The notes beneath the pieces were generated by a model. The model saw only the letters and a list, made by a program, of their open reading frames with translations. It was not told the DNA's origin and did not search any database. The translations under genes and the position numbers were made by a program. Shown piece after piece: positions 22,717 through 59,502 of a stretch of 64,000 nt of DNA. Source of the stretch: Actinomarinicola tropica (GTDB taxonomy: Bacteria; Actinomycetota; Acidimicrobiia; Acidimicrobiales; SKKL01); the NCBI RefSeq assembly GCF_009650215.1, contig NZ_CP045851.1, forward strand, positions 1,589,189 through 1,653,188, given 5' to 3'. Each line of letters begins with the position of its first letter. The stretch's first letter is position 1.

Positions 22717-23364
22717 TCAGGTGGTGGTGTCGGTGGTGTCGCGGTCGGCCTCGCCGGGCCCCTCGGCGCCGAAGCTGGCGACGACGCGGGACATGAGCTC
22801 GTCCCAGCCGTCCTGCGACGGGCCGGGCAGGCCCGATCCGCGGTGGACGAGCAGGCCGAGCCGGAGGATGCGGACGAGGAACAGGACGGCGGCGGGATCG
22901 ACCCCCTCGTCGATCGTGCCGTCGGACAGGGCGGCCTCGACGAGCGGGGCCATGGCGGTGAGCCAGCGGTCGTTGGCGTCGTGGATCGCCCCGGCGACGT
23001 CGGGCTCGCGCCGGGCGGCGACGTAGGTCTCGAGGAGGAGCGCCTCGCGCTCGTGGAGCGGCCCGGCGATCTGGTGCGCGCTGCCCCGGACGACCTCGGA
23101 CATCTGGCCCAGGCCGGCGGGCGACACCGGTCCCTGCGGGACGGCGCGGGTGACGACGGCCTCGTGGAGCAGCTCGCCCTTGCCGCGGAAGCGGCCGTAG
23201 ACCGCCCCGGTGGTGAGCCCCGCGGACCGGACGATGTCCTGGATCCGCGCCCCGTCGTAGCCGTCGCGCGCGAACACCTCGGCGGCGGCGTCGATCAGAC
23301 GCTCGCGCACCGGGTCGTCGACGCCGTCGTCGACGGGCGCGGCAGGGGAGGTGTCATCGGGCAC
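22717..23364 (-). CDS. TetR/AcrR family transcriptional regulator
   Basis: The 215-residue protein has a TetR N-terminal helix-turn-helix (RERLIDAAAEVFARDGYDGARI, shown shortened; then VRSAGLTTGAVYGRFRGKGELL). The C-terminal ligand domain is all-helical and not assigned to a subclass. GTG 23364 is preceded by TATTAT 6 nt upstream, embedded in an AT-rich inverted repeat. This strongly suggests autoregulation. The neighbouring diiron gene is downstream in the same operon, and the divergent prepilin-like gene may also respond. Confidence 0.92.
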   Translation of the reverse strand: MPDDTSPAAPVDDGVDDPVRERLIDAAAEVFARDGYDGARIQDIVRSAGLTTGAVYGRFRGKGELLHEAVVTRAVPQGPVSPAGLGQMSEVVRGSAHQIAGPLHEREALLLETYVAARREPDVAGAIHDANDRWLTAMAPLVEAALSDGTIDEGVDPAAVLFLVRILRLGLLVHRGSGLPGPSQDGWDELMSRVVASFGAEGPGEADRDTTDTTT

Positions 23365-23370
23365 ACCCCC

Positions 23371-23385
23371 ATAATAACGATTATT
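23371..23385 (-). promoter_or_regulatory. TetR operator and -10 box (AATAA-n3-TTATT)
   Basis: AATAACGATTATT (23373-23385) is an inverted repeat with 5-bp arms and a 3-bp centre, conspicuous in this GC-rich DNA. On the minus strand TATTAT (23376-23371) lies 6 nt before the GTG of the TetR gene, so a bound repressor would cover the -10 box. Confidence 0.6.
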
Positions 23386-23522: not shown

Positions 23523-24278
23523 ATGGAGCCACGCCACGCCATCCGCCGGATCCGGGAGCGCGCCGACCGGGGTGCGACCTTCGTCGAGTACGCGCTGCTC
23601 GGCGGTCTGCTCGCGCTGACCTCGCTCGCGAGCATGCAGTTCCTCATCGACACGACCGAGCAGGGCTTCGAGGAGACGCTCAACGACGTCGGCACCCCGA
23701 TCGAGGTCGAGGACCCCGGGCCGTCCGACCCGGATCCCTCGGATCCGGGCCCCTCGGATCCGGGCCCCTCGGATCCCGGCCCGTCGGATCCCGGTCCGTC
23801 GGATCCTGGCCCCTCTGATCCGGGGCCCTCGGATCCCGGCCCGTCGGATCCGGGGCCGTCGGATCCCGGCCCGTCCGACCCGCAGCCGGACAACCCCGAC
23901 AGCGGCTCCCGCTGGAACGAGGCCACCATCCAGGGTTCGTCGCAGACCACCCGTGAGTGCGTGGCGACGTGGATCTTCGGGTGCTGGCGGTGGGACGACG
24001 TGACGACCGTCCGGGCGTCGGCTTCGCTCCAGGTCCTCCGCCAGAACGGCTCCGCCGTCCGCGACGGATCCGAGGTCGAGGTGCTCGTCGAGCGCTGGAC
24101 CGGCGACGGCTGGCAGACGGTGCGCACGGTCACCGAGGACGTCCAGGGCGGGGCGCTCCACGTCGACGTGGACGACATCGCCGACACGCCGCGCGTCCGC
24201 ATGACCCTGCGGGACGTCAGCGGACGCAACAACGGCTGGGACGGGCAGCAGTCGTCGATCGTGATCGAGATCCCCTAG
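23523..24278 (+). CDS. Class III (Flp-like) prepilin-type protein with DPGPS stalk and beta-rich ectodomain
   Basis: The 251-residue protein begins with a short basic leader followed by RGATFVEYALL and a hydrophobic helix, the class III signal peptide of Flp/Tad pilins (cleavage before the hydrophobic part, Glu at +5). Next is an acidic linker, then 11 tandem DPGPS-type units (residues about 64-118), then a 130-residue domain rich in beta-strand-like sequence (WNEATIQGSS; VRASASLQVL; VRMTLRDVS) with two Cys. A plausible role is a surface stalk that displays a domain. Ordinary Flp pilins are only about 60-70 residues. ATG 23523 was chosen because it gives a normal leader; ATG 23487 is possible. 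No Tad motor genes are adjacent. Confidence 0.75.
   Translation: MEPRHAIRRIRERADRGATFVEYALLGGLLALTSLASMQFLIDTTEQGFEETLNDVGTPIEVEDPGPSDPDPSDPGPSDPGPSDPGPSDPGPSDPGPSDPGPSDPGPSDPGPSDPGPSDPQPDNPDSGSRWNEATIQGSSQTTRECVATWIFGCWRWDDVTTVRASASLQVLRQNGSAVRDGSEVEVLVERWTGDGWQTVRTVTEDVQGGALHVDVDDIADTPRVRMTLRDVSGRNNGWDGQQSSIVIEIP
23712..23876 (+). repeat. 15-bp in-frame tandem repeat encoding DPGPS
   Basis: Eleven consecutive 15-bp units encode DPGPS (one encodes DPDPS). They are rich in GGATCC. The codons vary between units, so the repeat is protein-maintained or old rather than newly slipped. A partial unit (DPQP) follows. Confidence 0.9.
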
Positions 24279-24402: not shown

Positions 24403-24924
24403 TCAGACGAGTGGCGGCCGCCCGAGGAGCGCGGCGATCCGCTCGGCGACCGGCGCCGGCGCCGGGACCCGCTCGTCGGGCTCGACCGTCCGGGCCCGCC
24501 GATCGGCCGCCCGCTCGGCGTTGGCGCGGGTGCCGGCGAGGGCGACGCCGAAGACGAACAGCGAGAGCGCGGCGGTCGCGCCGAGGACCAGCCCGCCGCC
24601 GAGCTGCCAGCCGAGGAGGAGGAGGATGGCGCCGCACACCGCGCCGACGACCGGCAGGGCCGGGGTCTTCTTCGTCGGGACGACCGCGCTGGCCGAGCGC
24701 CGGCCGCCGCCGAGCCGGGTGTGGACCTTGGCCTCGAACACGGCGCGGCTGACGGGGACCAGCGCGGCGCGCACCGCCTCCTCGTCACCGGCGGACAGCG
24801 CGCGGTCGAGGAGGTCGAGGGGCCCCGGCAGGTCGGACCACGTCCCGGTCGGCAGCGCGGCGTCGGCGAGCTCGACGAGCGCGTCGCGCGCCTCGGTGCG
24901 TGTGTCGGAGGTGAGCGGCGTCAT
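24403..24924 (-). CDS. Small membrane protein coupled to ABC exporter (unknown function)
   Basis: The 173-residue protein has a soluble helical N-terminal part (about residues 1-80), then two hydrophobic segments (about 95-112 and 117-135) and a basic tail. It was not recognised. Its ATG overlaps the stop of the ABC permease by 4 nt, so it belongs to the four-gene exporter operon. It may regulate or assemble the transporter, but that is only inferred from position. Confidence 0.6.
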   Translation of the reverse strand: MTPLTSDTRTEARDALVELADAALPTGTWSDLPGPLDLLDRALSAGDEEAVRAALVPVSRAVFEAKVHTRLGGGRRSASAVVPTKKTPALPVVGAVCGAILLLLGWQLGGGLVLGATAALSLFVFGVALAGTRANAERAADRRARTVEPDERVPAPAPVAERIAALLGRPPLV

Positions 24925-44124: not shown

Positions 44125-44212
44125 GCGGGTGTGGGCCGGACGGCCCATATCCCCCCGACGTGGAGCGGCGATCTCTTCAGCGACGGCCGATCGGTGGCCG
44201 GAGGAGATCGCG

Positions 44213-44683
44213 ATGCGCCACGACCAGACGACCACCCGACGAGACCGCCGCCGGCACGACGACCGAGGCGCGGTCCTCGTCGAGTTCGCGCTGGCCGCGC
44301 CGTTCCTGTTCCTCCTCATCTTCGCCACCGTCGACTTCGGCTGGGTCTTCGGCCAGCACCTCGACGTGCGCCACGGCGCCCGTGAGGGAGCCCGCCTGGC
44401 CGCGGTGAACTACCAGGGCGGCGGCGACCAGACCGACGCGCTCGTCGCCGAGATCTGCAGCCGCATGGACGCCGACCCGACCGTGCGCGTCGCGGTGACG
44501 ATGCCCGAGGGCCCGGGCTCGGGCGGCGCCCTCCAGGTCACCGTCACCCGCCCCGTGAGCACCCTGACCGGCTTCGTCGACTTCGCGCTCGACGGTCGCA
44601 CGCTGTCGTCGACCGTGAGCGCCCGCATCGAGCAGGACGCCACCTGGACCGCCACGGACCCCGCCGGGGTGGCCTGCCCGTGA
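44213..44683 (+). CDS. TadE-like pilus assembly/pseudopilin protein
   Basis: The 156-residue protein has a basic N-terminus then RGAVLVEFALAAPFLFLLIF, a class III-type prepilin signal with Glu at +5, typical of TadE. An extracytoplasmic domain of about 100 residues follows with two Cys (CSRM and a C-terminal CP). The GGAGGAG ribosome-binding site precedes ATG 44213. It overlaps TadG-like gene by 4 nt. Confidence 0.88.
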   Translation: MRHDQTTTRRDRRRHDDRGAVLVEFALAAPFLFLLIFATVDFGWVFGQHLDVRHGAREGARLAAVNYQGGGDQTDALVAEICSRMDADPTVRVAVTMPEGPGSGGALQVTVTRPVSTLTGFVDFALDGRTLSSTVSARIEQDATWTATDPAGVACP

Positions 44684-46299
44684 CCCGCCGGGAGCGGCTC
44701 CGGCGCGACGACGGCGTGGTGCTCGCCGTCGCGGCGATCCTCCTCGTCGCCCTGATGGGCATGGCGGCGTTCGCCGTCGACCTGGGCGGGCTCTACAACG
44801 CGCGCCGTCAGGACCAGTCGGCCGCCGACGTGGCCGCGCTCGCCGGCGTGCGCGAGCTGCCGGTGCAGAGCTCGGCCGCCGACGAGGTGATCCGCTACGC
44901 CGAGGACACGCTGGGTGTCGCGAGCGGCGAGATCGACTGGAACAGCTGCGGCACCGACCCGGGTGCGCTGTCCCAGCGGATCCCGGGGTCGAACTGCCTG
45001 TCGGTCGACCCGTCGGGTGCGCAGCTGCGCGTGCGCATCCCCGACCAGACCTACGAGACGTTCTTCGCCCACATCGTCGGCGTCGAGGACTTCACGCACT
45101 CGGCGTTCGCGATCGCGGCGCTCGACAACCCCGGCTTCGGAGGCGTCCTGCCGTTCGGGATCCCGTCCCTCGGCGGCGGAGGCGGCTACATCTGCCCGGC
45201 GACCCCGCCGGGCGGCCTGGCCACCGACCCCTGCTCGGGGCCCGACAGCGGCAACTTCGGCTACCTGAACCTGGCCCACTACCGCACGGCCGACTGCAAC
45301 CAGGGCGGCGGCTCGAACCGGTTCGGCCAGAACCTGGCCATGGGGGCGGACCACCAGATCGCGCCGTGGGACGGCGCGGATCGACGCGAGTTCGCGCTCT
45401 GCCCGACGATCACCGAGGCCGGCCCGCCGAACGTCATGCGGACCGAGACCGGCAACATCGCGAACCGGGTGGCCCAGGGCATGATCACCGGCCCCGGCAA
45501 CCCCGCGGGCGCCTATCCCGACGGTGAGCTCGGTCGGCTCGCACGCCTGTCCCCGCTGCTGTTCGACGGTTCGGCCGCGCCGGCTGCGGCGCGCACCACG
45601 ACGATGGGCAGCATCACCGTCGACGACAACCCGCTCTGGAACTTCATCCCCGCGAGCCTGGGCGGCGACGTCCCCGCGTCGTGCCAGCGGACGGTGTTCG
45701 TCGACGGGGCCGGGAACCCCCGGGACGACGTGAGCGGCGTGGTGCCGAACTTCGCCGACCCGGCCGACCGCTCGACCTTCATCGGGCTCCTGCAGACCGC
45801 GCTCGCAGGGCGCAGCGGACCCGAGGTGATGATCGCTCTGCTCGACCGCTGCTTCACCCACTACCTGGGCCAGGAGTGGGGTGCCGACTACGGCATCAGC
45901 CAGGGGGAGCCGAGCCCGTGCGCCCCGACCGGCTGCACCGGCCCGGTCTTCGCCGTGAACTCGACCACCGACGAGGGTCCCGACCTCTGGGACATCCAGT
46001 ACACGTCCCGCTTCGGGTACGTGCCGGAGTTCCAGCCCGGCTGCGACCCGAACGGCTCCGCGGAGTGCCGCATCGACCGCTTCCGGGCGATCTTCATCCA
46101 GCAGACCTGCGGCGGGTCCGGCAGCGGCAACTGCTCGGCGTTCGATCCCGGCTTCGGCCAGACCCGCTCGTCGGCGCCCGGCTCGATCACCGGCGTGACG
46201 ATGTGGGCCTTCCCCGACTCGATGCTGCCGGGCGCGCTCGGCGGACCGAACGCACCGAACGAGGTGGGCGTGAACCGATTCGTGGAGCTGATCCGATGA
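44680..46299 (+). CDS. TadG-like (Flp pilus) protein with large extracytoplasmic domain
   Basis: The 539-residue protein has the TadG-like N-terminus: basic RRERLRRDDG, then a single hydrophobic helix and GGLYNARRQDQSAADVAALAG. The remainder is a secreted domain of about 480 residues with many Cys (over a dozen), including repeated C-containing loops (SCGTDPG, CPATPPGG, CSGPDSGN, CDPNGSAEC, CGGSGSGNCS). Disulfides are likely. TadG proteins are thought to aid pilus assembly at the membrane. GTG 44680 overlaps the previous stop. Confidence 0.85.
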   Translation: MTRRERLRRDDGVVLAVAAILLVALMGMAAFAVDLGGLYNARRQDQSAADVAALAGVRELPVQSSAADEVIRYAEDTLGVASGEIDWNSCGTDPGALSQRIPGSNCLSVDPSGAQLRVRIPDQTYETFFAHIVGVEDFTHSAFAIAALDNPGFGGVLPFGIPSLGGGGGYICPATPPGGLATDPCSGPDSGNFGYLNLAHYRTADCNQGGGSNRFGQNLAMGADHQIAPWDGADRREFALCPTITEAGPPNVMRTETGNIANRVAQGMITGPGNPAGAYPDGELGRLARLSPLLFDGSAAPAAARTTTMGSITVDDNPLWNFIPASLGGDVPASCQRTVFVDGAGNPRDDVSGVVPNFADPADRSTFIGLLQTALAGRSGPEVMIALLDRCFTHYLGQEWGADYGISQGEPSPCAPTGCTGPVFAVNSTTDEGPDLWDIQYTSRFGYVPEFQPGCDPNGSAECRIDRFRAIFIQQTCGGSGSGNCSAFDPGFGQTRSSAPGSITGVTMWAFPDSMLPGALGGPNAPNEVGVNRFVELIR

Positions 46300-58300: not shown

Positions 58301-58401
58301 CCGCAGGCCGGGTCGTCGTCGGTCGGCCACCGGAGGTCGGTCGCGCTCTACAGTGCCCCGAGCGGCGGTGATGCCGCGCCCGGCGACCCGAGGTGAGAGC
58401 G

Positions 58402-59502
58402 ATGTCCGACCCCGAGAACGACGAGTCGACGAGCCCGGAGGTGCCGCCTCCGCCGGGCCCGCCGCCGGGTCCCTCAGAGGTGCCGCCACCTCCTCCGCCG
58501 CCCCCGCCCCCGCCTACTGGCCCGTCGGAGGTCCCGCCGCCGCCCAGCGAGCCGACGCCCCCGCCGCCGCCGGTCGCGCCGCCTCCACCGGCCGCCCCAC
58601 CGGAGCCGCCCGCGCCGTTCGTCGAGCCCGACCACCAGCCCGACGAGACCGTTCCCGGCGAGCCGACCGGTTCCTCCCCGTCGAGCGAGTCCCAGGAGCG
58701 CACGCTCGGCGTGCCCAGCGCGCCGACACCGCCGGAGGCGCCGCAGCCGGCGCCTGGCGACCTGAGCGCGCCGCCCCCGCCGCCGCCGGGGCCGCCGCCC
58801 GTCGCCCCGCCGCCTCCGCCCGCTGCGCCCCCGCCCCCGGTGGGGCCGCCGCCGGCCCCGCCCGCGCCCCCCGCGCCGCCGGCACCCCCTGCGCCGCCGG
58901 CACCCCCGGCGGCTGCGCCACCGCCTCCACCGGCGCCCCCGGTGCCGCCGCCCGCGCCGCCTGCGCCGCCCGCTGCGGCACCGCCTCCGCCGGGCCCACC
59001 CGCTGCGGCGCCTCCTCCGCCTCCCGGGTCCCCGGCGGCCGCGCCGCCACCTCCCGCAGCGGCACCTCCGCCGGCCGCCCCCGCCACGCCGCCGCCCCCT
59101 CCGGCCCCGACCGCCGAGGACCCGGCCGCGCTCGGCGCCAACCTCGGCCGGCTCGGGATGCTCTCGCGCCGCTCGGCCAAGCCGGCGGCGCAGATCGCCT
59201 CGGTGCTCCTCGAGGAGGGCGAGCGCGTCGAGCAGCTCGTCGGTGGCCGGTACCTCGGCGAGAGCGCGGTGGGGCTGCTCACCGACCGACGGTTCCTCGT
59301 CGTCAACGACCGCGAGTGGCGGCCGGACGTGCGCTCCATCCCGGTCGACCCGTCGGTGCAGGTCCAGGGCTACGGCGACGACAAGTCGGCGTCGCTCACG
59401 TTCTCGGGCGCCGGCGAGCCGCTGACCATCGAGTCGATCAGCGACACCGGGCTCGCCCGGGAGATGGCGCAGCGGGTGAGGATGCGCACCGGACAGGCGT
59501 GA
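58402..59502 (+). CDS. Proline-rich protein with C-terminal PH-like (bPH) domain
   Basis: The 366-residue protein has an acidic start (residues 1-15), a long disordered Pro/Ala-rich region (about 16-238), then a folded C-terminal domain (about 245-366) with SVLLEEGERVEQLVGG, VGLLTDRRFLVVNDRE and SIPVDPSVQV. This last part resembles bacterial PH/YokE-like domains. Function unknown. AGGTGAGA lies before ATG 58402. GTG 58393 would add 3 residues. TACAGT (58349-58354) may be the -10 box. Confidence 0.75.
   Translation: MSDPENDESTSPEVPPPPGPPPGPSEVPPPPPPPPPPPTGPSEVPPPPSEPTPPPPPVAPPPPAAPPEPPAPFVEPDHQPDETVPGEPTGSSPSSESQERTLGVPSAPTPPEAPQPAPGDLSAPPPPPPGPPPVAPPPPPAAPPPPVGPPPAPPAPPAPPAPPAPPAPPAAAPPPPPAPPVPPPAPPAPPAAAPPPPGPPAAAPPPPPGSPAAAPPPPAAAPPPAAPATPPPPPAPTAEDPAALGANLGRLGMLSRRSAKPAAQIASVLLEEGERVEQLVGGRYLGESAVGLLTDRRFLVVNDREWRPDVRSIPVDPSVQVQGYGDDKSASLTFSGAGEPLTIESISDTGLAREMAQRVRMRTGQA
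58435..59115 (+). repeat. Proline/alanine-rich low-complexity coding region
   Basis: CCG/CCC-rich codons give runs of Pro with Ala, Gly and Val. There is no fixed period, in contrast to the DPGPS repeat. The bias explains the Gly-rich antisense frames seen here. Confidence 0.85.

Follow-up and report, generated by a model that had tools for sequence, protein, structure and literature searches.

A long Flp-type prepilin with a DPGPS linker and a predicted Ig-like domain in Actinomarinicola tropica, a probable modular Tad pilin

Flp/Tad pilins are recognised by a leader that ends in G, with E at position +5 and Y at position +6 of the mature protein (PMC3244431). In the Tad pilus of Caulobacter, solved by electron cryo-microscopy, the mature pilin is a helix of 45 residues with its N-terminus towards the centre of the filament and its C-terminus outward (PMC11067988), and a 2024 review describes the adhesion module of this pilus as undefined (PMC7616799). 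Minor pilins with extra domains form the Tad tips of Myxococcus (PMC12075869). The survey of modular type IV pilins used a type IVa-style signature, IPR012902, and leaves Tad/Flp pilins unmentioned (PMC8179133). Here we describe a gene of Actinomarinicola tropica, prepilin A, whose product joins a Flp-type prepilin N-terminus to a linker of pentapeptide repeats and an immunoglobulin-like (Ig-like) domain. It lies in a 64,000-nucleotide stretch of contig NZ_CP045851.1, referred to below as the window. We consider it probable that the protein is a modular Tad (type IVc, Flp) pilin displaying a tethered binding domain.

A preliminary description of the window, made from the sequence alone, had placed the open reading frame (ORF) correctly at 23523-24278. 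The gene could alternatively start at an in-frame ATG (23487), and a clear Shine-Dalgarno sequence is absent at both candidate starts. The GC content by codon position (0.70/0.55/0.92) follows the same pattern as in the adjacent genes, indicating that the frame is coding; long antisense ORFs over the gene and its repeat were ruled out by codon-position GC as mechanical. The proposed Flp-type prepilin N-terminus was confirmed: the class III leader ends in G, the prepilin signature is DRG^ATFVEY with E5 and Y6, and a hydrophobic helix follows. G17 and E22 are invariant in a 19-row alignment, most rows of which were selected by a motif demanding both residues. The Pfam scan of the protein gave Flp_Fap and one chance match, and nothing else. 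PF07811 (TadE) matched neither prepilin A (23523) nor prepilin B (46296), a second long prepilin of the window; some relatives match it weakly.

The structure of protein A was predicted with AlphaFold2 using 19 aligned homologues. The model contains a helix at residues 16-56 (predicted local distance difference test score, pLDDT, of ~90 in its core), a low-confidence coil to residue ~129 and a beta-sandwich at residues 130-251; the mean pLDDT of 73.6 is pulled down by the linker. In the model, the sandwich is that of the bacterial Ig-like fold. Its best structural match is a macroglobulin domain of complement C5 (Z 9.9, root mean square deviation 2.8 over 103 residues, 5% identity), and fibronectin III and Ig-like domains also match. 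Such matches to a predicted model are signs of a common fold, not of function. PDB sequence searches with profiles of the domain gave nothing significant and Foldseek returned no match at E <= 0.001, and the Ig-like assignment therefore depends on comparing the fold of the predicted model. No named bacterial Ig family, such as Big_1 (PF02369), gave a profile match above cut-off for protein A, and Big_1 matches below threshold were seen in three relatives (L030, L162 and L191). The preliminary description had proposed a beta-rich domain of 130 residues with Cys; it is beta-rich in the model and carries the only two Cys of the protein, Cys146 and Cys154, but spans about 122 residues.

When a profile built from the Ig-like domain alone was searched, five of ten new matches up to E 1e-5 proved to be the Flp fusion, and the related domain also occurs on a subtilisin-like protease (L086) and on other proteins. 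As the same profile finds it there, the domain is not specific to pili, which is also what characterises the extra module of a modular pilin. A separate protein (L080 1486-2613) starts with a hydrophobic segment of a different pilin-like type, followed by a poly-Thr linker and an Ig-like end domain of the same kind.

Relatives were gathered by searching with the whole protein and with its pilin and domain portions separately, followed by a motif scan, yielding 33 distinct long Flp-type prepilins. The motif scan demands E5 and Y6 or W6, and these residues are therefore not independent evidence within the set; it overlooked one relative (L030) owing to its helix composition. Nearly all 33 come from the order to which A. 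tropica belongs (class Acidimicrobiia), with L130 sharing the class and L146 the phylum. An alignment-based search for related loci gave four relatives, from Acidimicrobiia, Acidimicrobiales and Actinomycetes; the related-locus search with protein A as single query found none, and a plasmid search gave no match. The preliminary description had made its idea of a family of displayed domains on pilin-like anchors depend on homologues of the fusion, and these occur in the same genus, family, order and class.

The linkers of the family consist of DPGPS, PTT, poly-Thr, Gly/Ser/Asp or collagen-like sequence, and the end domains are mostly Ig-like, with some ricin-type lectin and PKD domains, so that the idea of such a family is supported. 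The ricin-type lectin domain of L072 is above cut-off (E 1.2e-8), L161 and L185 give weaker matches to ricin-type families, and L163 bears PKD domains. One long Flp-type prepilin (L193 2191-3012) has a collagen-like GED/GRD linker for which Pfam Collagen scores just below cut-off. At the locus of prepilin A itself, the linker of the gene at the same place in the same-genus genome G001 is rich in Pro and Thr, with no DPGPS array, and that of the G002 orthologue is Gly/Ser/Asp. Judged from these sequences, the conserved property is a flexible linker and not its sequence letters. The exchange of linkers and end domains suggests a means by which pili or the cell surface could be fitted with different binding modules.

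Of the 33 long forms, 19 close the Flp helix with [VIL]G at mature position 40 and none does so at position 36, whereas in 35 of 79 ordinary Flps a VG occupies position 36 and the protein ends shortly afterwards. The added part therefore begins where an ordinary Flp pilin ends. TadE/TadG genes lie beside 17 of the 33 long prepilins on the same strand; the others, prepilin A among them, have no such neighbours. In a 44-column tree, 28 of the 33 long forms cluster, together with three short ones, and five fall among ordinary Flps. A single origin of the fusion was rejected on this tree (p-AU 7e-5), weakly so in view of the few columns. The three short Flp-like proteins that cluster with the long forms (L164 1450-1704, L166 1213-1698 and L173 952-1701; ~60 residues when mature) are encoded beside TadE-like genes and recall the plain Flps of the Myxococcus tip clusters.

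The genome (3.7 Mb, one contig) encodes two ordinary Flp pilins, a single A24 (type IV) leader peptidase and a tad locus with TadA-, TadB-, TadC-, TadZ- and RcpC-like proteins. In a TadB-like protein of the tad locus (L006 14839-16764), the T2SSF domain is preceded by a fused von Willebrand A domain. Three long Flp-type prepilins, A, B and C, are present in the genome. Prepilin B follows the TadE and TadG genes of cassette B, in which the TadG gene shares four bases with the end of the TadE gene and another four with the start of prepilin B. Its predicted model repeats the picture of helix and sandwich seen in A (best structural Z 8.2), bearing out the earlier statement that the proteins at 46296 and 23523 share an architecture with a different linker. 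Prepilin C (contig position 2371025-2371594) lies ahead of two TadE genes and one TadG gene.

We propose that the leader of prepilin A would be removed at G17/A18 by the single leader peptidase of the genome, and that the mature N-terminal part, a complete Flp helix, would enter the Tad filament assembled by the products of the tad locus, which lies elsewhere in the genome. Given that the pilin C-terminus faces outward in the solved filament, the DPGPS region would leave the filament as a flexible stalk of ~70 residues, holding the Ig-like domain away, and for the same reason a C-terminal extension could in principle ride on the shaft as well as on the tip. The Ig-like domain would most likely bind a surface or another cell. 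Prepilins B and C, beside TadE/TadG genes, would probably be placed at or near the pilus tip, and prepilin A, encoded alone and with a longer stalk, may lie at the tip or along the shaft. A bolder version, in which Flp subunits with tethered interchangeable domains (Ig-like, lectin, PKD) co-polymerise with ordinary Flps to decorate the shaft and the set from TadE/TadG cassettes forms alternative tips, is one that we hold only tentatively and consider less likely than not; if it were true, one assembly machine would gain several kinds of binding surface.

Several points weigh against a pilin. Protein A scores 13.8 bits against PF04964 (Flp_Fap), below the gathering cut-off of 32.2 (the G002 orthologue, at 34.9 bits, is above it), and with 251 residues and a beta-sandwich it is not the small all-helical subunit of ~50-80 residues typical of Flp/Tad pilins. 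The way in which relatives were selected accounts in part for the conservation of G(-1) and E5, and a long linker with a folded domain might impede passage through the assembly machine. We infer cleavage, incorporation into a filament, location and binding. The gene is also distant from the tad genes, as would be expected if the prepilin-like helix, processed or not, served as a mere membrane anchor that never enters a filament, the linker spanning a thick cell wall to expose the Ig-like domain. The linkers of genes without TadE/TadG neighbours (43-88 residues, median 80, n=9) are longer than those of genes with them (35-68, median 45, n=10; two-sided Mann-Whitney p 0.002 over 19 aligned proteins, an indicative value as the relatives share ancestry), and this too would suit an anchor. 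About 80 extended residues would reach roughly 25 nm. We nevertheless regard such an anchor as unlikely, since E5 and Y6 (or W6), which matter to pilin assembly but not to a plain anchor, persist in homologues that similarity searches, and not the motif, first brought up, and about half of the family adjoins TadE/TadG genes. The ordinary uncleaved anchor considered in the preliminary description likewise appears disfavoured by G(-1), E5 and the complete Flp-type core. That the fused domain is cargo, carried to the machine by the pilin part and then released or acting as an enzyme or effector, seems very improbable: a related domain does occur at the end of a secreted protease, but the domain here, an Ig-like sandwich, shows no recognised catalytic family, and no release site was identified, though no systematic search for one was made.

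A different explanation concerns the repeat itself. The preliminary description counted 11 DPGPS repeats, and 11 pentads are present, ten of them DPGPS and one, the second unit, DPDPS; an imperfect DPQPD follows the array. This is the strongest array in the window, with Tandem Repeats Finder scores of 188 at period 15 and 218 at period 30. Most other tandem repeats of the window are held by an ORF at 58372-59499, which over its first two thirds consists almost entirely of Pro and Ala repeats and has a C-terminal part free of repeats. Units of 15 bp with partial 30-bp periodicity, and two adjacent units that are identical, are what would be expected of a contingency locus at which slippage alters copy number and tunes stalk length between strains. 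The 11 units nevertheless comprise nine different DNA versions, and their differences from the consensus are 21 synonymous and one amino-acid difference (nominal p 8e-11, which treats the differences as independent though they are not). The array is therefore degenerate and unlike a slippage switch, and it is missing from the same-genus orthologue. The earlier idea of 15-bp copy-number variation is thus unsupported, and we consider a contingency locus highly unlikely. On the simplest reading of the sequence, the array would be old and retained for its protein sequence.

The TetR-like regulator gene is divergent from prepilin A in G001 as well, and the palindrome between the two genes (Table 1) is kept there as ATAATAACAGTTATT (L010 433-447). 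It overlaps a promoter-like -10 element of the regulator, and no palindromes of such kind are expected by chance in the window; it may be an operator of the regulator. The gene for the CATRA-associated small protein (CATASP) adjoins and converges on prepilin A in all three genomes that bear the orthologue; we know of no link between the two proteins. A comparison of the genus's two species gave identities of 71% for the regulator and 64% for CATASP, against 28% for prepilin A (40% in the pilin part and 25% in the domain). In cassette B of these two species, the values are 56% for TadE, 43% for TadG and 34% for the long prepilin. Rapid change of a presumably exposed domain would fit a binding role, without proving it.

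Table 1. Positions of features in the window
Feature	Position	Strand	Basis and remarks
TetR-like regulator gene, divergent	22717..23364	-	ORFs; TetR-like named from sequence; putative start
AT-rich palindrome ATAATAACGATTATT, candidate operator	23371..23385	.	between divergent regulator and prepilin A
Modular Flp-type prepilin A	23523..24278	+	251 residues; ORF, translation, coding frame by GC at third codon positions, orthologues in G001 and G002
Class III leader, residues 1-17, ends ADRG	23523..23573	+	sequence; cleavage predicted at G17/A18
Flp-type pilin helix, mature residues 1-39 (A1...E5 Y6...), then GTP	23574..23690	+	AlphaFold2; weak PF04964 match
11-unit pentapeptide array (10 DPGPS, 1 DPDPS)	23712..23876	+	core of linker (residues ~60-129); Tandem Repeats Finder; low-confidence and unfolded in model
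Ig-like beta-sandwich domain, residues 130-251, Cys146 and Cys154	23910..24275	+	AlphaFold2 strands; structural matches
CATASP gene, convergent	24403..24924	-	PF20271 E 2.9e-9, above cut-off
TadE-like minor prepilin, cassette B	44213..44683	+	PF07811 E 1.1e-13, above cut-off; putative start, listed ORF begins at 44129
TadG-like protein, cassette B	44680..46299	+	PF13400 E 3.1e-9, above cut-off
Modular Flp-type prepilin B, 204 residues	46296..46910	+	helix 18-57, Pro/Gly linker, beta-sandwich 87-196, Cys141 and Cys149

Prepilin A resembles the Flp/Tad major pilins (PF04964) in its leader, E5, Y6, hydrophobic helix and the VG/IG end of the helix. It differs in length (251 residues against ~50-80), in a helix that in such long forms is typically one turn (four residues) longer before the G, and in the added stalk and domain; because of its length and of a profile score below cut-off, we did not file it as a canonical Flp pilin. 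The TadE/TadF/TadG tip complexes, such as the Kil Tips of Myxococcus (PMC12075869) and CpaJ/K/L of Caulobacter (PMC12607857), are alike in that prepilin-like proteins from small clusters carry C-terminal domains that vary and have been proposed to adapt the Tad tip. There the TadG-like proteins vary and the Flps of the clusters, KilK and KilO, are plain, whereas here the Flp-type protein carries the domain. In the literature searched, outside which most subscription journals lie, we found no description of Flp-type subunits with grafted domains on long stalks, which is no proof of novelty. The family offers candidate adhesion modules fused directly to a Flp-type subunit, with recognisable lectin domains in some, and the fusion would be a natural test of the load that a Tad pilin can bear at its C-terminus. 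By analogy, prepilin A would work like the modular type IV pilins PilB and PilC of Streptococcus sanguinis (PMC8179133), in which the grafted domain, lectin-type ones included, is also found outside pili; there the module is joined by a short loop, whereas here the carrier is an all-helical Flp-type subunit and the domain stands on a long low-complexity stalk.
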